NCBI GenBank assembly: GCA_016870355.1
Contig: VGBR01000001.1
Coordinates: 1 to 57,573 of the forward strand
DNA from: Actinomycetota bacterium
GTDB lineage: Bacteria; Actinomycetota; Acidimicrobiia; IMCC26256; PALSA-555
Length of the DNA stretch: 57,573 bases
Direction of reading: 5' to 3'
Position 1 is the stretch's first letter, and each line of letters opens with the position of its first letter. Both the position numbers and the translations under genes were made by a program. The notes beneath the pieces were generated by a model that was not told the DNA's origin, made no database searches, and worked only from the letters and a program-made list of their open reading frames with translations. Shown here piece by piece: positions 1 through 12,781 of this stretch.

Positions 1-487
1 GTGCGGGGTCCTGACCCGGGATGCCCGGCAAATAGAAAAGGATGAATCGACCATCCGGAAGTTGCGCTATTGAAGGGTCAACATACGTACCTTCGCTGAG
101 GGTGACAGACGAGGTTGTCGTCGCACCCGTCGTCATGTCGACACGCGTCAACCCACTCGTGGGGTCGAATGGCACGGTTGTGTAGTACACGTACAACGTC
201 TTGCCGCGGCGAAAGACCTCGGGCACAGAACCTCGGAACGACTGCCATCCACCGAGGAGTGACCACGTTCTTCCGTCGGAACTCTGAGCGAGCTGCACGA
301 TGTGATTGCCAGGATTATTGCAATCTGTGGCCCCCGATGCACAGGTGTGAAACGACATGAGATACGGTTGCGTAGGCGCCGTAACTGCGGCCCTCGCTGG
401 TGTCGACATGACGAGTCCGGCAATTACCAAGCCGAACACCGTGCAGCAGACCCGAACGCGATGTCGTATGCGGATGAATTTGCCCAT
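1..487 (-). CDS. Exported beta-propeller-like protein, C-terminus beyond the window
   Basis: From an ATG at 487 the minus strand stays open to the left edge, so about 162 N-terminal residues are visible. Residues 1-34 have a basic start, a hydrophobic core and a TPARA-A cleavage-like site, so the product is probably exported. The mature part has strand-like repeats such as LAQSSDGRTWSLL, LYVYYTT and VDPSIAQLPDGRFILFYL, as in blades of five-bladed propellers (GH43 or sialidase-like folds). No catalytic residue can be assigned from this part. The start lies 16 bases past the stop of a decayed gene, and I see no clear ribosome binding site. The reading frame is well supported by the signal peptide; the fold is inferred and the activity unknown. 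Confidence 0.6.
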   Translation of the reverse strand, partial: MGKFIRIRHRVRVCCTVFGLVIAGLVMSTPARAAVTAPTQPYLMSFHTCASGATDCNNPGNHIVQLAQSSDGRTWSLLGGWQSFRGSVPEVFRRGKTLYVYYTTVPFDPTSGLTRVDMTTGATTTSSVTLSEGTYVDPSIAQLPDGRFILFYLPGIPGQDPA

Positions 488-503
488 AGTGACGAGTATT
501 GCA

Positions 504-668
504 CTATCCGAGGGATGCTTTTAGTGGCAGGTCGCGTTCGCCCGCGGCAATGGTGTCGACGATGCGGGCAGCCACGGAATCTGGTGCGAGGCCGGTTGGC
601 ATCTTCGGTGCAACGCCAACGATGGCACGAGTTGCAACGTCGCTCGCCTTCCACGACCCGTCACGTAA
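504..668 (-). pseudogene. 3' remnant of a short-chain dehydrogenase/reductase gene
   Basis: A 54-codon stretch ends in TAG at 504-506 and is bounded upstream by an in-frame TAG at 669-671. It has no usable start. Its residues include KMPTGLAPDSVAARIVDTI followed by AAGERDLP, which resembles the C-terminal helix of classical SDR enzymes (the region after the substrate loop, often 'mp..p..vA..i..ai..g'). The Rossmann glycine motif and YxxxK site are absent, so it cannot be functional. It probably marks the edge of a deletion. The family match is from memory and rests on a short segment. Confidence 0.35.
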
Positions 669-988
669 CTAGCGGTGTGGAGGTCAACCGTCAAACGGTG
701 GTGTCATGATTTCGCTAATCAATCAAAGGCCCCGTAATTGAGCACTCCACATCTCCGACACGCATGGGGTCACAACGGGGTCGCAAACCATAAAGAATTT
801 ATGGACTAGACGACACGTACTGCTCGCCACCACCTCACAGACACACACTCAGAAGACTGAATAGACAGGGTGATACGCCCGACCGTTGCGATCGCAACGA
901 TGAGAACCTCGATGAAGGCCAACCGGCGCGCCCGTCGTGAGCGGATCACGAAGAGCGGTGGTCCCGCTCTCGTTGCCGACAAGGACGT
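669..988. other. Gene-poor stretch with palindromes and lower GC
   Basis: No convincing gene is visible. The stretch has locally lower GC than the surroundings, mainly at 700-860. It holds a perfect hairpin at 788-804 (CCATAAA, loop gaa, TTTATGG) and a perfect 16-base palindrome at 884-899 (CGTTGCGATCGCAACG). On the minus strand a 47-codon frame from a GTG at 949 to a stop at 806 encodes a basic N-terminus and one hydrophobic stretch (LAFIEVLIVAIATV). It follows the small gene at 989-1144 in the same frame and could be a third micro-gene, but nothing else supports it. Confidence 0.4.
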
Positions 989-1144
989 TTAGCGGCCGCG
1001 GTCGCCGTTCGGAGAAGGCGACGGAGTCTCGCCACTGCGACCGATCGGCCATGCGCCCTTCCGCTCGAAGTTCGACGGATTCGGAGTGCTCGTGGACGGC
1101 CGCTGCACGGTCGGCGTCTGCTCGCTCTGCTTGTCCTTCGACAT
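989..1144 (-). CDS. 51-residue Ser/Thr/Pro-rich small protein coupled to the upstream membrane protein
   Basis: The ATG at 1144-1142 shares its A with the TGA of the preceding membrane-protein gene (TGATG), an arrangement typical of translational coupling. A GGAGGCGAAGTG stretch before it provides a GGAGG ribosome binding site. The product starts MSKDKQSEQTPTV and is dominated by S, T, P and charged residues, with FERKGAWPIGRSGE near the middle; it looks disordered and has no membrane segment or signal peptide. No family is recognised. It is probably a partner of the three-helix membrane protein encoded immediately upstream. The support is its start context and overlap; function is unknown. 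Confidence 0.55.
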   Translation of the reverse strand: MSKDKQSEQTPTVQRPSTSTPNPSNFERKGAWPIGRSGETPSPSPNGDRGR

Positions 1145-1602
1145 CACTTCGCCTCCAACGCCAGGTTACTCAGGAGAGCGAGCACCTCGACGACGAAGAT
1201 GGAGAACGCCCAAGACTGCAGCTTCCACAACCGGTCGAGCGTCTTCTTGTTGATCTGGTAGTCGTCGCCCGCATGAATGGCGAGCTCGCGCATGACGAAC
1301 TCCGCGTCGGGCTGCGGCACGGGATCCACGTACTCGGCGACGAGCTGATGACCGCCGAATCCCCATGGGAAGTCCACGGGTCGGTAGACCAGGACGGTCA
1401 GCACGGCGATCAACACGAACGCGACTGCAGCCACCCAGAACGCAGGACCGTGCCCGTCCGCTTGTGCACCGAGGAAGGCCGCGGCGATACCAGCCGCCGT
1501 CACCACGATGCTGAGATGACCGCGGACGCTCGACAGGTCCTGTGCTTGGCCGTCGAGTGATCTCATGGCTTCTCGGTACGCGATCTCGGCAGACGATGCC
1601 AT
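1144..1602 (-). CDS. Three-helix membrane protein of unknown function
   Basis: I chose the ATG at 1602 (MASSAEIAYREAMRSLDGQ), giving 152 residues; an upstream in-frame start at 1671 would add a non-conserved-looking leader. Residues 1-27 are an amphipathic helix, followed by hydrophobic helices near 28-45 and 54-72. A soluble loop with DDYQINKKTLDRLWKLQ then leads into a third helix near 130-147. This layout (helix, TM pair, long loop, TM) matches a widespread actinobacterial hypothetical family and resembles SLATT or Pycsar-type membrane effectors only in outline. The gene overlaps the next small gene by one base. A defence role is speculation. Confidence 0.65.
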   Translation of the reverse strand: MASSAEIAYREAMRSLDGQAQDLSSVRGHLSIVVTAAGIAAAFLGAQADGHGPAFWVAAVAFVLIAVLTVLVYRPVDFPWGFGGHQLVAEYVDPVPQPDAEFVMRELAIHAGDDYQINKKTLDRLWKLQSWAFSIFVVEVLALLSNLALEAK

Positions 1603-1764
1603 GACCGCAACGTAGCCACGGCATGTGACAGCCCCGACGAAGGCTTCGTTTGCTAATCCGCGGACCAGCACCCGATGTCATCGGATGGCACGAGCTGACA
1701 CGACGTCGCAGGTCAGCGGTACCGTGCGACACGCAACGGAACCGTGCGGAATGGGTGCGTCCCA

Positions 1765-1808
1765 ACTACCGATCAGAAGGTTGGGAATTCGAATTTCTCC
1801 GAGCGCGC
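1765..1808 (+). repeat. Left copy of a tRNA-Arg 3'-half-like direct repeat
   Basis: This 44-base sequence matches 3789-3832 at 38 positions in the same orientation. It includes GATCAGAAGGTTGGG, a T-loop-like TTCGAAT and an acceptor-like CTCCGAGCGCGC, the order found in the 3' half of bacterial tRNA-Arg(ACG). The T stem is damaged here (aatTCGAAttt), and no 5' half with D arm or acceptor partner lies upstream, so it is not a working tRNA. Such 3' tRNA fragments are typical leftovers of integrase-mediated insertion. It lies just upstream of the deacetylase gene. Confidence 0.6.
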
Positions 1809-1856
1809 TGCATTCAGCGTCGAACTCCTAAGATCCCGCCCGTGCGGGGTGGCCGG

Positions 1857-3713
1857 GTGCGACATGGTGCGCGCCGATCGGTGGCGATGGCCGCGTGCGC
1901 ATGCTTGCTTGCCTCGTGTGGTCCCGTTCTCGACGGGTTCGCCGGGTCCGGTGTTCCTGCGGTCGCGGCGCTGTTCGACGCGCCAGGGGTCTTCGCGTTC
2001 ACGGTCCCTGCGGGCGTGTGCGGGCTCACCCTCACCCTCGAGGGTGGCGATGGTGGCGCTGGGTTCGACACCACGCTGGGAGACCGCGGTCAGGAAGGAG
2101 GAGTTGGCGCGCACGTCAGCCTCCACGTCGTCGTGACACCCGGGCTCTTCTTCCAGGTGGTGGTGGGTGCGGCCGGCGCGGATGCGACAGCCGCTGGCGC
2201 GGGATCGGGTGGCCGCGGTGGCGGTGGTGGTGGCGGCGGCGCTGCCGCTGCGAATGGCGGCGGTGGCGGCGGGGGCGCGTCGGCGCTGTACACCACCGGG
2301 ATCGTCGCGGTTGCCGGTGGCGGCGGCGGGGGTGGTGGTGCCGGGACGGCGCCCCCCGATTCCACGACCACAACCGCGGTGACAGCCACGCCCGCCGGGC
2401 TCGAGAGAGCCCAGGAGGTGGTGAGCGCCGCGGGGGCCGGCGTTGGCGGCGGCGGCGGGTTCGGCACGGGCGCGAGCGGCGGCTCGTCTTCCGCGGGAGC
2501 GCCGGGAGGAGGTGGCGGCGCCGGCGGGTTGGGCGGCTCCGGCAGCACCGGTGGAAGCGGCAATGAGAGTGGCGGTGGTGGTGGCACCCTTGGCAGTGGG
2601 GGTCCTTCCGGAGGATCCGCGTCGGGCGCCGGTGGCGCGGGCAACGGCTCGTTGGGTGGGGGCGGCGGCGGCGCGGGGTCGCTGAGCGCGCCGGGCAGTG
2701 GAGGGACGGCGGGCGGTGCAGGAACCGCTCTCCCGGGCGCCAGTGGATCGGGTGGAGCCGGAGGCATCGGGACGTCGAGCGGTGGTGACGGGGGTCCCGG
2801 TGGCGGCGGCGCCGGAGGTGGGGGCGGCGGCGGCCAGGGCTTCGGCGGTGGTGGCGGCGGTTCCGACGCCGGCGTCGGCGGTGGTGGCGCGGGCTACGGC
2901 GCGGGCGGGGGCGGCGCGCTCGACGCGGGTGGTGGTGGCGGCTCGTCCTTCGCCACCTCGAGCGCCTCGGCCGTCACGTGGCAACCGAGCGATCGTACGG
3001 GCAACGGCCGGGTGTCGATCACCTCGGTGCCGGCAGTTGACAACTGCCCCGTCGTTGCGCCGACGGGCCCAGTGCCACGGATCGCGTACACGGGACCTTC
3101 GAGCCGACGACTCGTGGCCCTGAGCGTCGACGATCTGTGGAACGCGTCGGGGGCGATGAACGTCAACTCGACGATGGACATCCTCGCCGCGAAGAACGTC
3201 AAGGGCATGACCTTCTTCCCGACGGGTGGGGCGCTCGAGCAGCATCACGCGCTCGGATACGACTGGGTGTGGCGACGAGTCGCGCGCAGTCAGAGCGAGA
3301 TCGGCAATCACACCCACACGCACCGGTCGCTGCCGACGCTGAGCAACGGCGCCATCGTCTACGAGATGCAGCACACCCAGGACTTGCTCAACCTCGTGCT
3401 CGGTCCCGGGTTCGCGTACCAGATGCACCTCATGCGCCCTCCAGGCGGCAACGGTGGCTATCGCGGTGGGGATCCGCGGGTGCTCAACATCATGAGCTCG
3501 ATGGGTCTCTCGATGATCATGTGGAGCATCGAGACTCACGGCAGCGGTCCCGTGCACGGCGCGTTCGTCTCGTGGATCATCCGCCAGGCACGCCCGGGAT
3601 CCATCGTGCTCATGCACTACACGCAGATCACTCCGGGCGAGATCGGTCGAGTGATCGATGGTCTGCGCGCCCGCGGGCTCGAGCCGACCACGGTGACGAG
3701 CCTGTTCGCCTGA
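1857..3713 (+). CDS. Glycine-rich lipoprotein with C-terminal polysaccharide deacetylase (NodB) domain
   Basis: I start at the GTG at 1857 (VRHGARRS), which gives a basic start, a hydrophobic run and a lipobox LLASC with Cys at residue 21; a GTG at 1842 is possible. Residues about 45-75 (FTVPAGVCGLTLTLEGGDGG) match the opening of glycine-rich domains found in cell-surface proteins. Residues about 80-385 are then extremely Gly/Ala/Ser rich. From about residue 415 a NodB homology domain follows: LSVDD for the TFDD motif, GNHTHTH for the metal-binding HxxxH region, MRPPGG for RxPG, and IVLMH near the end. It probably removes acyl groups from an extracellular or wall glycan while tethered to the membrane. 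The gene is bracketed by tRNA-like repeats. Confidence 0.8.
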   Translation: MRHGARRSVAMAACACLLASCGPVLDGFAGSGVPAVAALFDAPGVFAFTVPAGVCGLTLTLEGGDGGAGFDTTLGDRGQEGGVGAHVSLHVVVTPGLFFQVVVGAAGADATAAGAGSGGRGGGGGGGGAAAANGGGGGGGASALYTTGIVAVAGGGGGGGGAGTAPPDSTTTTAVTATPAGLERAQEVVSAAGAGVGGGGGFGTGASGGSSSAGAPGGGGGAGGLGGSGSTGGSGNESGGGGGTLGSGGPSGGSASGAGGAGNGSLGGGGGGAGSLSAPGSGGTAGGAGTALPGASGSGGAGGIGTSSGGDGGPGGGGAGGGGGGGQGFGGGGGGSDAGVGGGGAGYGAGGGGALDAGGGGGSSFATSSASAVTWQPSDRTGNGRVSITSVPAVDNCPVVAPTGPVPRIAYTGPSSRRLVALSVDDLWNASGAMNVNSTMDILAAKNVKGMTFFPTGGALEQHHALGYDWVWRRVARSQSEIGNHTHTHRSLPTLSNGAIVYEMQHTQDLLNLVLGPGFAYQMHLMRPPGGNGGYRGGDPRVLNIMSSMGLSMIMWSIETHGSGPVHGAFVSWIIRQARPGSIVLMHYTQITPGEIGRVIDGLRARGLEPTTVTSLFA

Positions 3714-3788
3714 TCGACCCGAGCCGGCCGCCCGGAGACGTCTCGGTACCGGGTCGCTCCAGACGTCGGCGCGGGCGGATGTGTTTGG

Positions 3789-3832
3789 GACTACCGATCG
3801 GAAGGTTGGGGGTTCGACTCCCTCCGAGCGCG
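3789..3832 (+). repeat. Right copy of the tRNA-Arg 3'-half-like direct repeat
   Basis: This is the better preserved copy of the repeat at 1765-1808 (38 of 44 identical). Its T arm is nearly intact: GGGGG, loop TTCGACT, then CCCTC, followed by CGAGCGCGCCA, which even ends in CCA. The anticodon-arm part reads CTACCGATCGG, but the 5' strand that should pair with it and the whole D arm and 5' acceptor strand are missing. It is therefore a tRNA 3' fragment and not a tRNA gene. It starts 75 bases after the deacetylase stop. Confidence 0.6.
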
Positions 3833-3877
3833 CCAGCCGTCGGGCATCAAGACGTCCGCACTTGCAAAGATGCGGCC

Positions 3878-4063
3878 ATGGGCACTTCCGACGAGCTCGT
3901 ACGAACGTTGCCATCCCTCGACGACGGGCATGCACTTCCGTCGGCGCCGCGGTTCCCGCAGAACACCGAATGGTCAGCCCGGCGCATCTTCGTGCACATC
4001 ATCGCTGAGACCGCGCAGCACGCCGAACACGCGGACATCCCCCGCGAGTCAATCGACGGCTCA
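3878..4063 (+). pseudogene. Remnant of a DUF664 (DinB-like) gene
   Basis: The frame from the ATG at 3878 encodes EWSARRIFVHIIAETAQHAE, then HADIPRESIDGSKTMG, which matches the C-terminal helices of DUF664/DinB-superfamily proteins (usually '..W.ll.mieETarHaGHADi.ReaiDG'). Intact members have roughly 160-180 residues; only about 60 are here, without the N-terminal helices. The frame runs on without a stop into the antisense of the next gene, whose TGA lies at 4061-4063, so the original end is lost too. It is best read as a remnant with both ends damaged. Confidence 0.6.
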
Positions 4064-6379
4064 AAGACGATGGGCCGACACCTTCTTCTTCGCCGGTGGA
4101 CCGCTCTGCATTCGGTCCACGAGCAGCAACACGAGCACGGGCGTGAGGATGCCAAGCATCACGCCCGGGACGGCGATGCCGGTGTCGTTCAGCGCGTAGC
4201 CGAGCACCGCGGCGACCGCGAACCCGATGAGCATTGCCTGCAACGTCGGGACGCGCTCGACGATGCGACCGACTCGCACCGGTGACCAGAAGAACAGGTA
4301 GGCCAAGAACGCAAGGACGATCACGGCCATGACCAACCACTCGGTCGAGCTCACCGCTGTGGCCAGGTTGCGGCCCAGCTTGCGCACGAGCACGTTCGAC
4401 AAGACCGACGGACCTTCGTCGGTGATCTGCTCCACCAGTCGACCAAGGTGCGTACGCTGATCTGCGGGCCGCGCGAAGTCGAGTGCCGTCGCCGCCACGA
4501 GTCCCAGCACCGCCACGCCGAGCCCGATCCAAAGCACCCGGGCGCGCAGCCGGACTTCTCTGCTCATGAGCAGCAGCACGGTGACGACGCCGGAGACGCC
4601 GAGCGCGAGCACGCCGCCGACATCGGAGCCCCACGCGGGGTTGGCGTCGACGATCACCGCGACTGCGACGACGGCAGACGCCGCGATCACGCCTCGTTTC
4701 CCTGCCACTCGGTGCGCGAGCAGCCCTGCAAGAAGGATGCTCGACGCCGCGAGCGCCGCGAAGCTCACGTTGCCAAAGCCGGCGATCCGCACGCCGACCG
4801 TCGGGCCGTAGCCGAACGCGCTGTTGAGCTGAAGGTGCGCGCCGCTGATGACGTCCAACACGAGCACGCCCATGATCGTTCCGACGCCCACGATCAGCTC
4901 GTCTACGACGCGTCCGCGAGCGACGGCTCGGTAGAGGAGCGCGAGCGCGAGCGTCCCTGTAGCGAGCGCGGCTGCATATCCGGCAAAGCCCCATTCATGC
5001 GCTGGCAAGAGACGGATCACGTAGAGCACCGGAACGAACGCGAGTGCACCCAGCGGCGCGTACCGAAGCACCGTGCGCACCCGCGCGCCCACCCGACCCC
5101 GGAGGAGCAGGATCGTGGCGACGCCGAGTGCGGCCTGGATCGCGACGAACGCGTAGATCACGGCAGTGCGCGTGCGCTCTCGGAAGTCGGCTTCTTCACT
5201 TGCGTCGACGAGCCCTTGCAGACGCGCATCAAAGCTGTCGCCGTCGGGGGTGAGCTGGAAGCGGCGCCCTTGCATGTCGCGAGCTCGCTCGATCCCGAGG
5301 ACGTCGAGGATCGTCGGTGCCACGTCGGCCAGCAACGCGTAGCCGTCGCGTCGGGTGCTGGCGGTGCGAAGTAGCCCAGCCTCGCCGCCTGGCGCGTGCA
5401 GCCCCACCGCCGCGAGCCGGTTGCCGTCCAGCGCGGGCGCCGGGCTCAAGATGAGCACTGCATCGCGCTCGAAGTCGACCGATTCGAGCAGCCGGCCGAC
5501 GAGCGCATCGGCACGGCGCAGCGCGACCCGCTGCTGCTCGCGCACTCGATCGGGCTCAGTCAGCGGTGCCGCGGCCTTCACCCGCGCAAGGTCTGATGCT
5601 TCGACGAGGACGACCGATTGCTGCTCCCAGACATCGTCGAACGCGGACACGACGGCGTCGGGATCGAGTCGCACACCGAACGGAGATTGCGGATCGTCGA
5701 TCAGGAGGCCGTCGTCGACCCGGCCCGCCGGGACGCGTCCTTCCGCGTCCATCAACGCGGCAGCGAGGTACCGGCCGAACGACTCGAGCTCGGTGCCGAG
5801 CACCATGGCGTCGGCGTTGCCGATCACCGCACGCGAGTAGCCCGCACGTTCGAGCGCGTCGCCGAGCGCACCGACGTGCACGTCGACCTCGTCGTCGTCG
5901 TTCACGTCAAGGATCGGCGCGAGACCGAGATGCACGATCCCCTGGGTCGGGGAGAGCGCGGTCCGTTGCTCGAACACAGCCGCCGCGTCCTCACCCACAA
6001 ACTCCTCGTCAACCTCGAGCGCGGCCCCGTCGGTGAGGTCGTTCGGCGCGGCGGCCCGGGTGCCCGCCCCCAGCGTGAGGTACCCGGATCCGAGGTTGGC
6101 CTCGGTGATCGTGCGCGTGGTCATCGTGGCGAGCGCCGCACCCTGAAGCACGCGCCGAATGTTCGGGAGCTCAGCGTTCGCGATGTCTTCCCACGACACG
6201 TGCGGAAGGCTGATCACGAGCACACGATCCGCGGTGACCGCGCCGCCGTTCGTCGTGCCGGCTCGGGGTGATGCACCGGTTGGCGGTGTCGTCCCGCCGA
6301 TGGCGACCCCGGCGACGATGACGGCGATCGCGAAGCGCGGCAAGAAGTGCAGTCGTCGCCGCGGCGCATCTCCCGCCAC
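4061..6379 (-). CDS. Membrane protein with an extracytoplasmic alkaline-phosphatase-superfamily-like domain
   Basis: I prefer the GTG at 6379 (VAGDAPRRRLHFLPRF) because the longer start at 6553 would run into the divergent flippase gene; this gives 772 residues. One hydrophobic helix near residues 16-33 is followed by about 370 extracytoplasmic residues. These begin VLVISLPHVSWEDI and contain NLGSGYLTLGAGTRAA and DVAPTILDVLGI, the latter typical of the end of alkaline phosphatase/sulfatase folds. Roughly ten transmembrane helices then fill the C-terminal half. The Asp usually found in the first motif (vDG) is replaced in ISLPHVS, so catalysis is uncertain. It diverges from a flippase by about 106 bases, suggesting a role in surface glycan or lipid metabolism. 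Confidence 0.7.
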   Translation of the reverse strand: MAGDAPRRRLHFLPRFAIAVIVAGVAIGGTTPPTGASPRAGTTNGGAVTADRVLVISLPHVSWEDIANAELPNIRRVLQGAALATMTTRTITEANLGSGYLTLGAGTRAAAPNDLTDGAALEVDEEFVGEDAAAVFEQRTALSPTQGIVHLGLAPILDVNDDDEVDVHVGALGDALERAGYSRAVIGNADAMVLGTELESFGRYLAAALMDAEGRVPAGRVDDGLLIDDPQSPFGVRLDPDAVVSAFDDVWEQQSVVLVEASDLARVKAAAPLTEPDRVREQQRVALRRADALVGRLLESVDFERDAVLILSPAPALDGNRLAAVGLHAPGGEAGLLRTASTRRDGYALLADVAPTILDVLGIERARDMQGRRFQLTPDGDSFDARLQGLVDASEEADFRERTRTAVIYAFVAIQAALGVATILLLRGRVGARVRTVLRYAPLGALAFVPVLYVIRLLPAHEWGFAGYAAALATGTLALALLYRAVARGRVVDELIVGVGTIMGVLVLDVISGAHLQLNSAFGYGPTVGVRIAGFGNVSFAALAASSILLAGLLAHRVAGKRGVIAASAVVAVAVIVDANPAWGSDVGGVLALGVSGVVTVLLLMSREVRLRARVLWIGLGVAVLGLVAATALDFARPADQRTHLGRLVEQITDEGPSVLSNVLVRKLGRNLATAVSSTEWLVMAVIVLAFLAYLFFWSPVRVGRIVERVPTLQAMLIGFAVAAVLGYALNDTGIAVPGVMLGILTPVLVLLLVDRMQSGPPAKKKVSAHRL

Positions 6380-6485
6380 TCCAGCTCCTCGATCGTGCGC
6401 TCTTCGCGGCGCGACACCGGGCTTCGGAGTGTACCCAGGGGTCGCCGCAGCCACCTCCAACTCGGCTGTTAGTTTCGATGGTCGG

Positions 6486-7838
6486 GTGAACGAACGCGCG
6501 CGCGGCCGAGGTGATCGCGGAGTCGTCTTCCGCGGACTCGGTTGGAACGCCATCGGTTATCCGCTGAACGTCGGGCTCCTCTTCGCGAGCCACTCGCTCG
6601 CGTCCAACATCCTTCCGAAGCGCGGTTTTGGCTCGTACTCGCTCGCCTTCACCATCTTCGTGACGACCGCGCTCATCGTCCAGCTCGGCCTCCCGCACTC
6701 ACTGTTGCGGCGAGCCGCGACCGCGCTCAGCAGCGGTGACGAGCACACTGCTGCGCACGAGGTCGTCTCCGCGCTGGCCTTTGGCGCGGTCGTCGGGCTC
6801 GTGGTCGGCGTCTTCTTCGGTTCACCGCTCGGTGACGAGGTGCTCTCGTTGCTGTTCCCCGCGACCGGCGTGGCCGCGGTCGCACTGCTAATCGGAATCC
6901 GGACCGCCCTGCGTGTGATCGAGAACATCGTGCCGGAAGCACTGCGGGCATATCGTGACTTCTTCCGCGTGATGATCTTCGACGGGCTCCTCGCGAACCT
7001 GCTCTTCACCGGCGCGCTCGTGGTCATCCTGGTGACCAGCGACAGCTCCTCGGTTCGCGAGCTGATGACCGTCGGCGCGGTGGTTGCGGTGGTCGCGCTG
7101 GTGCCCGCGCTCCTGAGCGTCTTCACCAAGATCAAGGGCGCACGCGCCGCTGGTCTACGGGTCCGCAATCCACTTGAACCGAGCATGTGGGCGGTCACGA
7201 TCGGGCGGACGATCCTCGCCCAGCTCGACCTCTTGATCGTCGGCATGCTCGCCGCGAGTCGTGACGTGGCGCAGTACGCCGCGCCATTCCGGCTCGGTTT
7301 GCTGGTCGGGCTGCCGCTGATCGCTTTCAACCAGGTCGTGCCCGCGCTGCTCGCGGGCTGGTTCGCGCAGGGGAAGCTTCAACGCATCGAGCGCGTGATG
7401 CGCGGCACGGCCGGGATCGCACTGTTCGGGTCGCTCGCCCTCGGCATCGGCTTCGTGCTGTTCGGCAAGGCGGCATTGGGCACCTTCTTCGGTGACGAGT
7501 ACCGCGGCGCCTACTCGATCCTCCTCGTGCTCTCGTTGGGGCAGATCCTCCAGACCGCCACCGGTTCGTGCGGCTTCGCGTTGATGATGACCGGCCACAG
7601 CCGTGCCTACGCGCAGATCCTCGGCGTCAGCGCCGTCGTCACGATCGGCGCCGACGTCCTCTTCTACGACCTGTGGGGCCTCGACGGTCTTGCGATCGCA
7701 ACTGCCGGGACCTTGGTGCTCCAGAACACGGTGCAGGCGATCGCGGTGAAGCGACTTGCGGGTTTCTCCGTGTGGGCCAACCCGCGCCTCGCGCTCGCGG
7801 AGGTGCAACGCGTGCTCAGGCGGTCCGAGAAGGACTAG
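6486..7838 (+). CDS. Polysaccharide/lipid-linked oligosaccharide flippase (MATE-like, Wzx type)
   Basis: A GTG at 6486 (VNERARGRGDRGVVFRG) is the likeliest start because the longer frame overlaps the divergent gene and has no membrane character; this gives 450 residues. About 12-14 hydrophobic helices cover the protein, beginning WNAIGYPLNVGLLFASHSLA and continuing with the KRGFGSYSLAFTIF loop typical of polysaccharide biosynthesis proteins of the MOP superfamily. It probably moves a lipid-linked sugar across the membrane. Its 3' end overlaps the convergent sulfotransferase by 23 bases. The substrate cannot be read from sequence. Confidence 0.8.
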   Translation: MNERARGRGDRGVVFRGLGWNAIGYPLNVGLLFASHSLASNILPKRGFGSYSLAFTIFVTTALIVQLGLPHSLLRRAATALSSGDEHTAAHEVVSALAFGAVVGLVVGVFFGSPLGDEVLSLLFPATGVAAVALLIGIRTALRVIENIVPEALRAYRDFFRVMIFDGLLANLLFTGALVVILVTSDSSSVRELMTVGAVVAVVALVPALLSVFTKIKGARAAGLRVRNPLEPSMWAVTIGRTILAQLDLLIVGMLAASRDVAQYAAPFRLGLLVGLPLIAFNQVVPALLAGWFAQGKLQRIERVMRGTAGIALFGSLALGIGFVLFGKAALGTFFGDEYRGAYSILLVLSLGQILQTATGSCGFALMMTGHSRAYAQILGVSAVVTIGADVLFYDLWGLDGLAIATAGTLVLQNTVQAIAVKRLAGFSVWANPRLALAEVQRVLRRSEKD

Positions 7839-8739
7839 CCGCGGGCAGAAACGGCCGCAGCCACTCCGGCACGCTCTCGCCCCACGCAACCATCTCGGCG
7901 CTCAAGCGCGCGTTCGGCTCGCGGTAGCGGTCGGTGAGCAGCGTCTTCACTTCGTCCGGCATCGGCACGCGCACGGTGCGACCGTTCAATCGTCGATACA
8001 CGCCGCGCAGGCGCTGCTTCACTCGGTAGTGACGCCGGAGCACGACCTCGAGTCGACGGTTGAGGCGCAACGCCAACCACTGCAGCTGCCGATTGCGATA
8101 CGACGCGGTGCGGTTCTCCGCGGGCAGCGCCACGTTCGAGACCGGTTCGGGCTCGAGGCCCAGGAACTCGGACACGCGCCGCAACGTCGCCTCGGGTTGG
8201 TGCACCAGCTCGTCGAAGTCGACGATCGCAAGCTTCGCTCCGAATGCCTCGTGCCACGCTGGGAGCCAGTCGGCGTAGAAGCCACCGCGCAACCCGAACC
8301 ACCGGTGGTTCTCCGGATCCAAGAAGTCGGCCTCGTCCATCGCGTCCGAATGTGCGAGGTACTCCTCGACGGTCAGCTTCTCGGGGATGCGCAGTCGCGC
8401 CTTCTGCGACGCGAAGAACGAGAGGAACCGGCTGACGGGTTCGCGGAGCACCACGATCACGCGGATGTCACCGAGTGTCTCCTTGAGCGCACCGGCGAGC
8501 GCCCGGCCACCGTAGAAGTAGCGGGGAGACGCTTCGAGCCGGATCGATTGATCGCCTGCTTCGGCGAAGTAGCGCTCATACTCCCCGAGTGGTTCGAGGG
8601 TGGTCCCGTACATCACCGGATGGAAGTAACGGGTCTCCTTCACGAGCGCGGGCGCGACGTCGGGATGTGCCGACAGCGCTCGGAACAACGACGTCGTCCC
8701 GGCCTTCTCGACGCCGACGATGACGGCGTTCGCGAGCAT
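7816..8739 (-). CDS. Sulfotransferase-family protein
   Basis: I start at the ATG at 8739 (MLANAVIVGVEKAGTTSLFR), giving 307 residues; a TTG at 8772 would add 11. The 5'-phosphosulfate-binding loop VGVEKAGTTSLFRAL is at residues 8-22 and the 3'-phosphate motif VVLREPVSRFLSFF lies near residue 100. The middle and C-terminal parts (DFDELVHQPEATLRRVSEFL) match PAPS-dependent sulfotransferases that modify carbohydrates or lipids. It converges with the flippase with a 23-base overlap, so the pair may act on the same surface glycan. The acceptor is unknown. Confidence 0.85.
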   Translation of the reverse strand: MLANAVIVGVEKAGTTSLFRALSAHPDVAPALVKETRYFHPVMYGTTLEPLGEYERYFAEAGDQSIRLEASPRYFYGGRALAGALKETLGDIRVIVVLREPVSRFLSFFASQKARLRIPEKLTVEEYLAHSDAMDEADFLDPENHRWFGLRGGFYADWLPAWHEAFGAKLAIVDFDELVHQPEATLRRVSEFLGLEPEPVSNVALPAENRTASYRNRQLQWLALRLNRRLEVVLRRHYRVKQRLRGVYRRLNGRTVRVPMPDEVKTLLTDRYREPNARLSAEMVAWGESVPEWLRPFLPAASPSRTA

Positions 8740-8823
8740 CGTCACCGATCGTAGGACCCGGCGGACCGGCAAGTGCTTCGCGCTGGCCCGCGGCGCGCTC
8801 CATCGATACTTCGACGCGCGGAG

Positions 8824-10326
8824 TCATTCCTCAGGGTAGGGCTCCAGGATCAGCGGGGGGCGAGGCGGCTGGTTGAAGTCGAACGCCGCGCGCAGGTCGC
8901 CGAGGATGGGTACGTCCTCGCGGACGAGCGGCCGACGGTCCGGACGCCCGTTGGTGCGTGGATCGATGCGCTCCCCGTTCAAGAAGACATCCTCGATGAA
9001 CTTCAGGTACGCGTCGTGGCTGAGGACCTGCTTGTCGATGAAGCCCTGCTTGGCGTACGGGCTGATGACGAGGCCGGGCACGCGGATGCCGTAGCCGTTC
9101 ACGTCCACTTCCGGCGGAGGCATGTGGTCGTAGAAGCCGCCCCAGTCGTCCCAGGACACGAAGATCGCGGTGCTCTCCCACATGTCGCTCTGCATGAGGT
9201 TGTTGATGACCCGCGTGACGTGGGCCTGGCCGTCGCTGACGCGACTGCGGGGGTGCTCACTGACCTTGCCGCTCGGGATGAGCCACGACACGGCGGGCAA
9301 CGTGTTGTTGCGAACCGCGCGGTCGAATGCGCGCATCGACTCGATGTTGCCGAGCTGGTTGTTCTCCTGCACGGTCGTGAAGTACGGCATCGGGTTCCAG
9401 ATGCTCGGTGTGCGCCGGTCCTGCTTCCCTGGCGTGCAGGTGATGGGACCCTCGATCTCGTCACAGTCGGGCTCCTCGCCCGCGAAGACGTAGTACCCCC
9501 ACGACACCTTGGCCCTGTGCAGCAAGTAGGTGATGTCCGTCCAGGCGTAGATCGGATCGCGGAACTCCGGGATGTCCTCTGGATCGACCTTGGGGAAGAG
9601 CTCTCGGAAGCGACCCTCCTGCCAGTTCACCGGCGCGTCTGGTGCGTCACCGTCGGTCACGCACGACATCGGGTTCTCGTTGCGGCAGCGCGCGGACCAG
9701 CCCGAGACCATGTAGAGGTGCGCGGGGAGCGTCCACGAGTTCGACGAAGCAAACATGTGGTCCTGGAGGACGAACTGCTCCGCGTATGTCCAGTAGTTCG
9801 GGATGTCGGCGCGTTCCTTGTACCCGAGGACGTTCATCGGGTTCTTGGAGTTGCGTCCGCAATCAGTGCCGGCGTTGAGGTCGACCATCTGGCGGACGCA
9901 CGGCTGCGCGGCGTCTTGATACGCCTTGAGGTAGCCGTCCATCGCGCCACCGTTCCGGGCCACGACGTAGCCGCGGTAGCTGTGGGGCCCGCCGAAGTTC
10001 CGATCGCGCGGGTCGTGGTACAACACGGCGCACGCGTCGTTGTTGTACGGATCGACCACGCACACGTCGATGTTGCCGGCCGCGTCGCGAGGGAAACCCT
10101 CGGCGCCGGGGAACGTGCCGAAGTAGTGATCGAAGGAGCGGTTCTCTTGCATGATGATCACGATGTGCTCGATCTTCTCGAGCTCGGGAGAGATCGCGAC
10201 TCCCTCGCGTCCGGTGGACTGCACCGGGCGAGTGTCGACGCGTGGAGGTGTCTCGGTGCTCGGCACCGCGACCGCGGAGATCCCGACGACGCCGACGCAG
10301 CACGCGATGAGTCGAAGAGCTCGCAT
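8824..10326 (-). CDS. Secreted phosphoesterase of the phospholipase C / acid phosphatase family
   Basis: The 500-residue product begins with a hydrophobic signal-like segment (MRALRLIACCVGVVGISAVA) lacking a twin-arginine motif. Its core opens with IEHIVIIMQENRSFDHYFGT, the signature of the bacterial phosphoesterase family that includes non-haemolytic phospholipases C and AcpA. Later segments (SSNSWTLPAHLYMVSGWS, FVSWDDWGGFYDHMPPP and VPGLVISPYAKQGFID) are also family hallmarks that provide metal and phosphate ligands. It probably hydrolyses phospholipids or other phosphoesters outside the membrane. It stands alone, with 53 bases to the next minus-strand gene upstream. Confidence 0.9.
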   Translation of the reverse strand: MRALRLIACCVGVVGISAVAVPSTETPPRVDTRPVQSTGREGVAISPELEKIEHIVIIMQENRSFDHYFGTFPGAEGFPRDAAGNIDVCVVDPYNNDACAVLYHDPRDRNFGGPHSYRGYVVARNGGAMDGYLKAYQDAAQPCVRQMVDLNAGTDCGRNSKNPMNVLGYKERADIPNYWTYAEQFVLQDHMFASSNSWTLPAHLYMVSGWSARCRNENPMSCVTDGDAPDAPVNWQEGRFRELFPKVDPEDIPEFRDPIYAWTDITYLLHRAKVSWGYYVFAGEEPDCDEIEGPITCTPGKQDRRTPSIWNPMPYFTTVQENNQLGNIESMRAFDRAVRNNTLPAVSWLIPSGKVSEHPRSRVSDGQAHVTRVINNLMQSDMWESTAIFVSWDDWGGFYDHMPPPEVDVNGYGIRVPGLVISPYAKQGFIDKQVLSHDAYLKFIEDVFLNGERIDPRTNGRPDRRPLVREDVPILGDLRAAFDFNQPPRPPLILEPYPEE

Positions 10327-10379: not shown

Positions 10380-11096
10380 TTAGACGTTTGCGCACGCGGC
10401 GATGGCGGCATCGGCCGCGGCGTTGACGGCCTTCACCGTGCCCTTGCCGAGCCGCGCGAGGTAGGCGATCTTCCATGGCTTGCGCAGCAAGTACCACGCG
10501 AGCGCTTTGAAGTTCCCCGAGCCGTCCGGTCCCGCCATCTTCAGCACTTCGGGATCCACGGTGTCGTCGTCGCCGCGATCACTGATGCCACGGTACGTAC
10601 TCCATGGCACGCCGCGCGCGTCGCACACGAGCCCGACGGCCGACGTCTCCATATCGACGGCCACGCACCCGTCAGCGATCATCTTCGCGGTCGTCTCGGG
10701 GTCGTATCCGAACTGATCAGAGGTGACGAGCGTGCCGCGCGCGATCGCGCCGCCCAAGGTGTGCGGTCGTGTCTCTCGACCCGTGTCGCCGTGGATCACG
10801 AGCTCCGGGAGGACGAGGTCGCCGATGTCGACGGTCGGACCCATGCCGCCGGCGATGCCCACGACCATGACGTGATCCACCTTGATGCCGTCGAGCAGTC
10901 GCTCGGTCGTCTCCCGCGCGGGTCCGGTGCCGATGCCGGTGATCACCGCGACGACACGCACATCGCCGACGCGCCCCTCGTGGGTGAAGGCGCCGTTGCC
11001 GGCGTCGGTCTTCTCCAGCGGGATCTTCTTCTTCAGCGGTGCGAGCTCGGGCACCATCGGGGCCAGCATCGCCACCGTCTTCGGCGTCTCGGTCAT
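10380..11096 (-). CDS. Nucleoside phosphorylase-like protein (PNP/UDP superfamily, MTA/SAH nucleosidase-like)
   Basis: The 238-residue protein starts MTETPKTVAMLAPMVPELAP and contains VAVITGIGTGPARETTERLL, VVGIAGGMGPTVDIGDLVLPE and CVAVDMETSAVGLVCDARGV. The glycine-rich phosphate/ribose region and the VDMETSAV nucleoside-binding motif are diagnostic of the superfamily. It may cleave a purine nucleoside or a thio-nucleoside such as methylthioadenosine. The C-terminal 50 residues (LRKPWKIAYLARLGKGTVKA) extend past the core. It lies antisense and adjacent to a truncated metallopeptidase start. The exact substrate is not clear. Confidence 0.8.
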   Translation of the reverse strand: MTETPKTVAMLAPMVPELAPLKKKIPLEKTDAGNGAFTHEGRVGDVRVVAVITGIGTGPARETTERLLDGIKVDHVMVVGIAGGMGPTVDIGDLVLPELVIHGDTGRETRPHTLGGAIARGTLVTSDQFGYDPETTAKMIADGCVAVDMETSAVGLVCDARGVPWSTYRGISDRGDDDTVDPEVLKMAGPDGSGNFKALAWYLLRKPWKIAYLARLGKGTVKAVNAAADAAIAACANV

Positions 11097-11175
11097 GGGT
11101 GCAGCATGGCCGGATCAGGGGCACCAGCGCATGACGAGTGCAGGACCCGCTGGGAGAGGGAGAACAACACCCGTG

Positions 11176-11340
11176 GTGAAGTTCAATCGCAAGGCGAAGA
11201 TCGACACGGGCAGCGTTCGCGACCGCCGTGGTGGAGACGGCGGGATGGGCGGCTTCGGCAGCCGCGGCGGCGGGGGCTTCGGTGGCGGTGGGTTCGGCCG
11301 CGGCGGCAGCGGGTTCCCCTTGCCGTTCCGAGCATCCGGG
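11176..11340 (+). pseudogene. 5' remnant of a YpfJ-type neutral zinc metallopeptidase gene
   Basis: A GTG at 11176 opens VKFNRKAKIDTGSVRDRRGG, followed by a glycine-rich run (GGMGGFGSRGGGGFGG). This is the standard N-terminus of the YpfJ/KPN_02809 neutral zinc metallopeptidase family (usual form 'MkfN.kArlDtsqVrDrRG' followed by glycines and one TM helix). After about 55 codons the similarity stops where the convergent amidase gene begins at 11342; the TM helix, HExxH zinc site and the rest of the usual 280-300 residues are absent. The frame stays open to 11493 only as antisense of the amidase. It is a clear truncation. Confidence 0.7.
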
Positions 11341-11341
11341 G

Positions 11342-12781
11342 TCAGGCGGAGGTGGGTGGGCGACGGTCAGCCCAGGGCTTGGCGGCTTCGAGCTGGGATG
11401 CGAGGCGGAGGAGCACGTCCTCTCTTCCGTAGGCGGCGACGAGCTGCACGCCGACCGGCATCCCGTCGTCACCCCAGTGCAGCGGAAGCGTGATCGCCGG
11501 CTGTCCGGTCACGTTGAAGGGCATCGAGAACGCGGTGAGCCCGCCGAGTCGGCCGAGCATCGTGTCGAGCGGCGCTTCTGGACCCAGCTCACCGAGTCGC
11601 GGCGTCGGCGCGGGGACCATCGGCGTCACCAAGATGTCGTTGCCGTCGGCCCACCACTGCGACACGCCGCGTGCGTAGGACTGCGCCGCTTCGATTGCTG
11701 CGACGTACCTCGACGCGGTCACCGACTGCGCCACCTCGGCCTGCATCGCGTTGAACGGCTCGAGCTCTGACAGCTCGATCGTTCGACCCAGTCGTTCGCT
11801 CCACCGGTCGATCTCGCGGCCGACGAAGGTCGGGAAGAGCACCGCGATGCCTTCGCCGAAGCCAGCATCATCCAATGCAGGGATCGCAGTCGGTTCCACG
11901 TCGTGGCCGAGCGACTCCAGCAACGCCGCGGTCTCGCGCACGGCGGTCACCGCGTCGGCGTGCGCGTCGCCCAGCCCGCCGCCGCGTTCGGTGCGAAAGC
12001 CGATGCGCAGTCGTCCGGGATCAGCGCCGACCTCATCCGCGAACGGTCGTAGAGGTGGCGGTGCCGTGTAGGGGTCGCCGACGCCTGGGCCGCAGGTTGC
12101 GTCGAGGACCGCGGCGGTGTCGCGCACCGAGCGCGTCAGCACGTGCTCGTGCGTGGTCATCGCCCAGTACTCACCGAAGTCAGGGCCGAGCGTGGTGCGG
12201 GCGCGACTCGGCTTGAGCCCGACGAGCCCGCACATCGCGGACGGGAAGCGGATCGATCCACCCATGTCGTTGCCGTGTGCGACCGGCACCATCCCCGCGG
12301 CGACTGCGGCACCCGCGCCTCCGCTCGAGCCGCCCGGGGAACGGTCGAGATCCCACGGGTTGTGCGTCTTCCCATAGGCAAGCGGCTCGGTCGTGATTGA
12401 GTGCGCGAGCTCGGGCAGGTTGGTCTTGCCGATGATCACGAAGCCCGCGGCGCGGAACCGCTCCACGAGCCATGTGTCGTGCTCTTCGGTCCAGCCCGCG
12501 TCCTTCAACGCGCGCATCCCGCAGTGGTACGGGTCGCCGGCGGAGTGCGCGACCGCGTCCTTCAACAGGAACGGCACACCGCGGAACGGGCCGTCAGGAA
12601 GCGAGCTGTTCGTGGCTGCATCGACGGCCCTCTCGCTCAGATCGTGGATGACGGCGTTCAGCTGAGGATTGAGCGCCTCGACCCGTCGCAGTGCCGCGTC
12701 GACCAGCTCGCTCGGTGTGACCTCACCGGCTCGCACCAGCTCGGCCTGTGCGGTCCCGTCGAGCCACGCGTAGTCGTCCAC
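11342..12781 (-). CDS. Amidase (amidase signature family)
   Basis: The 479-residue protein carries the full Ser-cisSer-Lys triad context: FLLKD with Lys74, [18 protein letters not shown] with the cis-Ser near residue 153, and [11 protein letters not shown] with the nucleophile Ser176. The C-terminus ([22 protein letters not shown], shown here only in part, ending PWADRRPP) is typical of stand-alone amidases and 6-aminohexanoate-hydrolase-like enzymes. No gatB or gatC is near, so it is unlikely to be the GatCAB subunit. The lytic transglycosylase gene ends 11 bases upstream on the same strand, suggesting co-transcription. Substrate unknown. Confidence 0.88.

Follow-up and report, generated by a model that had tools for sequence, protein, structure and literature searches.

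We think it quite probable that the left end of the window (the whole stretch of 57,573 nucleotides, or 57.6 kb, analyzed here) forms the outer portion of a tandem array of integrative elements stacked behind a single tRNA-Arg(ACG) gene, and that the polysaccharide deacetylase gene found there lies in a CIME-like remnant. The repeat search of the window gave two direct repeats on the plus strand, repeat 1 at 1765-1808 and repeat 2 at 3790-3833, identical at 38 of 44 positions (86%). The first-pass annotation had described this pair correctly, except that it placed the second copy at 3789-3832, one base too far to the left. It had also likened both to the 3' half of tRNA-Arg(ACG), and the genome bears this out. 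An intact tRNA-Arg with the anticodon ACG, the only one in the genome, was located by ARAGORN on another contig, C17 (2138-2213, minus strand), so the tRNA identity of the repeats is correct. The objection that they might be unrelated to any tRNA-Arg of this genome falls, as they match it. In a whole-genome search, positions 3789-3836 of the window were identical to C17:2137-2184 (minus strand) at 46 of 48 bases (96%, E about 1e-14), and this was the single further strong match to the repeat stretch. Aligned to the C17 tRNA, both cores start at the anticodon loop and extend through the 3' end of the tRNA, with 2 mismatches in 48 bases for repeat 2 and 6 in 44 for repeat 1. Chance is excluded, since a Smith-Waterman comparison of the tRNA-Arg with the whole window scored 84 and 58 for the two repeats and 31 for the next best place, less than 40% of the repeat 2 score. 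Neither repeat is a tRNA gene; ARAGORN and Rfam (gathering threshold) detected only a tRNA-Ser in the window, and with a relaxed Rfam threshold neither repeat matched a tRNA, as expected, since each is only half a tRNA. The intact target tRNA with displaced 3' fragments on the same strand (the tRNA being on another contig, joined by synteny), together with a core that runs from the anticodon loop to the tRNA 3' end, corresponds to a site of the anticodon-loop class. The repeats are the attachment-site cores of a tyrosine integrase targeting tRNA-Arg(ACG).

The only convincing gene between the repeats, as had been remarked from the sequence alone, codes for a Gly-rich lipoprotein of 610 aa (1881-3713, plus strand; lipobox LASC; 45% Gly over residues 71-370) with a C-terminal NodB/polysaccharide deacetylase domain (Pfam PF01522, E 5e-15). 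The DD, HxxxH, RPP and LMH motifs aligned with PDB 6hm9 (E 2e-16), and with both the domain and the metal-binding/catalytic motifs present, the product is a predicted CE4/NodB polysaccharide deacetylase. Relatives within the order reach only about 30% identity, so the gene looks like accessory cargo rather than core, and no relative holds it in a conserved place; the first-pass annotation had named a stable core position of both copies and the deacetylase in related genomes as what would refute it. No deacetylase relative was confirmed in the genome and viral collections, and no copy elsewhere points to past mobility. Flanked by two cores and with no integrase, the segment would be an att-flanked remnant resembling a CIME; repeat 2 shows no recognizable arm. 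Alternatively, these 2 kb might never have been an element. The deacetylase gene would then be ordinary DNA of the chromosome or of an island that came to be enclosed by two cores, repeat 2 marking where a single island ends on its outer side and repeat 1 stemming from the insertion of a later element at a core or from a core duplication. This we judge unlikely. It would agree with the missing arm at repeat 2, where the similarity to other arms was no better than for random stretches, with the G+C content of the deacetylase half, near that of the host (66% in the NodB part), and with the variant CTACC common to both repeats (CTACG in the intact tRNA), as if one had come from the other, for which the accretion model gives no explanation. 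However, accretion of any kind would leave a gene enclosed by an outer core, and the relatives of the deacetylase in the order, at only about 30% identity and none in a conserved place, also speak against trapped chromosomal DNA.

Repeat 1 is the inner att core (the 3' 43-44 nt of a tRNA-Arg). Its phage-side arm, TTGCTAATCC plus about 80 bp, is common to two relatives, one of them with an integrase. The conserved P-side part (caggtcagcggtaccgtgcg...ggaaccgtgcggaatgggtgcg) occupies 1690-1764 (plus strand) and was delimited by local alignment with the distal att arms of the genomes G005 and G002. Alignment of the 130 bases on the left side of repeat 1 gave matches to the left flank of the outer core in G005 (score 45) and to that of the core on contig C282 of G002 (score 35). 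Neither score was reached by any of 5,000 shuffles or by any other stretch of the window except one at 1700, which overlaps the arm. The expected exact count of TTGCTAATCC, a motif chosen after three loci had been inspected, is about 0.0075 per window, and its sole copy in the window at 0-1 mismatch lies at 1650-1659 (plus strand), 116 bp upstream (left) of repeat 1. G005 has two copies spaced by 11 bp, which lie 123 and 112 bp to the left of its outer core, and G002 has another such pair just downstream of the tRNA core, before the integrase. From their position and repetition, these copies are putative arm-type integrase sites. As the arm is on the left side of repeat 1, this repeat closes an element to its left, not to its right. 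The description of both repeats as decayed tRNA ends needs to be qualified here: besides keeping its arm, repeat 1 has the T-stem GGGAA/TTCTC instead of GGGGG/CCCTC in the tRNA, i.e., two exactly compensatory pair changes. The simulated chance of this is about 1e-4 to 4e-4, which is supportive but not decisive, since the test was picked after seeing the sequence. Such a T-stem would be expected of a 3' half that had diverged while part of a functional tRNA; a search of 395 class genomes and of viral contigs yielded no donor tRNA carrying it.

The DNA left of repeat 1 starts with the 5' part of a gene for a secreted, beta-propeller-like protein (geneA copy, 1-771, minus strand), cut by the contig start and 92% identical to C17:1382-630 (minus strand), which sits just downstream of the intact tRNA-Arg. 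GeneA has no Pfam match, its minus frame is open to the contig edge, its G+C content is 56.9%, and the beta-propeller-like fold is a guess. A small membrane protein follows (1144-1671, minus strand), the likely cargo of the inner element; it is SLATT-like by a match to PF18184 SLATT_3 (E 0.0025, 18.5 bits) under the 26.3-bit cut-off and had no match in the defence library. The G+C content near the C17 tRNA and at the window start is 56-57%, versus 67-68%, and by composition the most foreign-looking DNA is that left of repeat 1 and behind the C17 tRNA. Bases 1-127 of the window are identical to C17:1382-1256 (minus strand), in the interior of C17, and the sequences diverge from base 128. A length of 127 is a common assembler k-mer, so the contig probably starts at a graph branch shared with C17. 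The shared start could represent two geneA copies in one genome or two strain haplotypes; with haplotypes, the left-hand element (element A below) would be about 2.6 kb.

The proposal of a stripped island or surviving cargo gene thus holds in part: the deacetylase gene is cargo in an integrase-less segment, but foreign DNA is not confined to the 2 kb, and its clearest part, with about 56% G+C versus 67%, is left of repeat 1. Similarly, the suggested attL/attR footprint is right in that the cores are those of a tRNA-Arg(ACG) integrase, but repeat 1 is an inner and repeat 2 an outer att site in a stack that has the tRNA on C17 at its inner end, and the two do not bound one isolated island. A single decayed island, with repeat 1 as attL and repeat 2 as attR of a deacetylase-only element unrelated to the DNA on the left, would suit a one-gene segment of 2 kb between two cores, and small single-interval cases do exist in relatives (1.1 kb in G005). 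Still, we consider it very improbable. There is no intact tRNA at repeat 1, so a lone island could not have its tRNA-side end there; moreover, the DNA to its left matches the DNA just behind the C17 tRNA, and the arm marks the outer end of the left-hand element, an orientation that largely refutes this explanation.

C17 and the window represent the two sides of the tRNA-Arg locus, as indicated by the synteny of a nucleosidase and of the genes upstream of the tRNA. In congeners, the nucleosidase and an amidase form the conserved chromosomal flank after the tRNA-Arg or its outer att site. Their orthologs in the window are at 10380-12781 (minus strand), the nucleosidase (10380-11096) being 77% identical to that of the congener G001 and the amidase beyond it also shared. 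The order in G001 is tRNA-Arg, a DinB gene and the nucleosidase, and in the congener G002, an outer core is directly followed by the orthologous nucleosidase, with the tRNA and an integrase on another contig. Upstream of the C17 tRNA there are azlC, azlD, a ureidoglycolate-lyase-like gene, a cupin and a dehydrogenase, in the same order as in G002. At a minimum, the DNA added between the flanks of the locus amounts to 10.4 kb of the window together with the stretch behind the tRNA on C17. The core of the tRNA and repeats 1 and 2, all in one orientation and with an arm at the inner core, compose an accretion array in which C17 and the contig of the window (C1) would be contiguous, as their synteny suggests.

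Just outside repeat 2 (the outer att core, i.e., the displaced tRNA-Arg 3' end), there is a C-terminal fragment of a DinB/mycothiol-S-transferase gene (3878-4081, plus strand; PF04978 positions 96-149 of 149). It was considered as an empty-site match to the tRNA-adjacent DinB gene of G001 and rejected, with only 42% identity over 26 aa, whereas its closest relative is on contig C5 of G014 (64%); for this reason the nucleosidase took over as the synteny evidence. About 6.5 kb separate repeat 2 from the conserved nucleosidase, at whose edge there is no core; this counts against the stacking model, as does the location of the tRNA and the repeats on different contigs. Most of this interval (4061-10326, 6.3 kb) codes for an 830-aa membrane protein, a flippase, a sulfotransferase and a phosphoesterase. 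Neither G001 nor G002 has this DNA at that place, and contig C2 codes for a 48% paralog of the membrane protein. The region may be an old island layer or lineage-specific chromosome.

A pattern search found the 43-nt core in 65 of 100 relatives. Two or three copies were present on one contig in 11 other genomes, a count that leaves out the genome of the window and G067 (in which both copies are full tRNA genes), and all 13 neighboring core intervals were same-strand, with sizes from 0.9 to 20.6 kb. Within the fetched regions, one copy was normally a complete tRNA and the rest were cores whose identity ended at the anticodon loop; the tRNA was cut off or outside the fetched stretch in four regions (G043, G076, G088 and the second part of G015). 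Another set, of named loci, was fetched by the neighboring cupin gene; in it, an extra same-strand 3' copy accompanied two of nine tRNA-Arg(ACG) genes and none of 18 other (control) tRNAs, although the set overlaps the first (L130 is G002 and L151 is the G005 contig) and so is not fully independent. Among other genes, the segments in relatives carry an HTH and Fic pair (L090). The outer att arms of G012 (L086:7636-13758) and G043 (L090:1362-3957), which belong to different families, are strongly alike around GGTAGCGTCGCTCTCGACAACACAGCCGAG; in both, an intact integrase is absent between the cores, and the HTH and Fic genes are in the G043 segment. In the cores of G043 (L090:1362-1404 and 3915-3957) and G088 (L093:5511-5553 and 7166-7208), the opening bases of the anticodon loop are variable (TTACGG, TGACGG and CTTCGG), which might mark the crossover point or indicate another tRNA-Arg. 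Incidentally, L130 (identical to L075, CAMDCC010000196.1) and L131 are titled "Bifidobacterium breve" but are acidimicrobial by gene order and similarity; their titles look mislabeled.

As had been noted at the outset, no integrase remains nearby; in the profile search, neither the window nor C17 gave an integrase domain (PF00589). It detected three integrase genes in the genome, none of them at either place. Two seem XerC/D-like, in our judgement from sequence and neighbors, and the third is a 142-aa C-terminal fragment. This fragment (L043:1444-1872; C12, near 39.3 kb) is about 0.4 kb from a tRNA gene (C12:38750-38824), which suggests a second decayed tRNA island in this genome. In some relatives, the tRNA-Arg site itself is occupied. 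G002 has a tyrosine integrase (L075:828-2000; Arm-DNA-bind_4 and SAM_3 domains) directly behind the tRNA, as does G010 (assigned by similarity to that of G002); G015 and G028 have homologs of the G002 integrase between the tRNA and the outer core, and G012 has a remnant with the N-terminal half only. Since the integrase is absent from the element here, though present at the same site in relatives, we class the site as a footprint and not as an intact island. In IMG/VR, the exact core was found in 11 contigs, 9 of which had a relative of the G002 integrase near it; a peptide-pattern search for the G002 integrase in viral contigs found none, while the core-pattern search did find contigs. A 33-nt version of the core is present in many mycobacteriophage records, and the tRNA-Arg gene Msmeg_6349 is the attB for mycobacteriophages BPs and Hope (PMC3029335). 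The precise start of the cores at the anticodon loop, their recurrence in several families with one and the same orientation, and their presence beside integrases in viral contigs refute an origin by chance or as non-mobile tRNA pseudogene copies (e.g., kept fragments of a tRNA cluster), to which we give practically no credence.

During tRNA integration, the attP of the element takes the place of the 3' half of the tRNA, and the former half is displaced outward (PMC4383910). Under the stacking model, elements of a phage-type tyrosine integrase family would recombine in the anticodon loop of tRNA-Arg(ACG), and at every insertion the incoming element would supply the 3' half that rebuilds the tRNA and push the previous one outward. 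Element B, the older one, carrying the deacetylase gene and presumably once independent, would have inserted first, leaving repeat 2, the old host 3' half, at its outer edge. Element A, with geneA, the SLATT-like gene and the conserved P arm, would have inserted later into the tRNA, placing between A and B repeat 1, the 3' half that the deacetylase element had brought and that was then displaced. This is the order of insertion that we infer, and it would require C17 and C1 to be physically joined. Elements A and B have no recognizable integrases, so the deacetylase segment would be CIME-like, i.e., att-flanked and at most mobilizable by a helper integrase, and any present mobility would be of this kind. 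A bolder idea is that the tRNA-Arg(ACG) of Acidimicrobiia is a cassette-stacking locus, in which integrase-less segments of 1-4 kb (one or two genes, some Fic- or SLATT-like) with conserved arms are picked up and moved in trans by the integrases of resident phages, making up a satellite-cassette system; we regard it as doubtful.

Several known systems resemble this one. CIMEs and site-specific accretion (PMC5704250) involve att-flanked segments without integration genes, in tandem with another element at a tRNA 3' end; here, the tRNA end is on another contig, and any transfer functions or mobility would be hypothetical. The accretion of AICEs at tRNA-Arg in Streptomyces (PMC9513070) shares the tRNA family, the actinobacterial hosts and the succession of elements with an old direct-repeat-flanked remnant, but in our case no AICE replication or traB genes were seen, the host class is another one, and the segments are much smaller. 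The Dehalococcoides ssrA islands (PMC3146451) are also arrays of cargo segments, each lying between direct repeats of the 3' end of an RNA gene, and roughly half of the segments have no integration module, although their target is a tmRNA and their integrase a serine recombinase. Mycobacteriophages BPs and Hope likewise target a tRNA-Arg but are intact phages with their own integrase, whereas no phage genes remain here. Finally, Islander-type tRNA islands (PMC4383910) have the same regenerated tRNA, displaced 3' fragment and crossover class at the anticodon loop, but the Islander filter rejects integrase-less intervals and would miss the deacetylase segment.

CIMEs, accretion and even accretion at tRNA-Arg in an actinobacterium have already been published (PMC5704250, PMC9513070), and the stack at tRNA-Arg(ACG) is a clear but ordinary case of this well-known process in poorly studied, uncultured actinobacteria. 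Such cargo will escape island finders that insist on an integrase or on a contig without breaks. A further warning is that, in metagenome-assembled genomes, contigs can end at repeated sites of this sort. For this little-studied and mostly uncultured class, the analysis documents a recurrent tRNA-Arg(ACG) integration hot spot with stacked remnants and names the likely integrase family and its putative arm sites.
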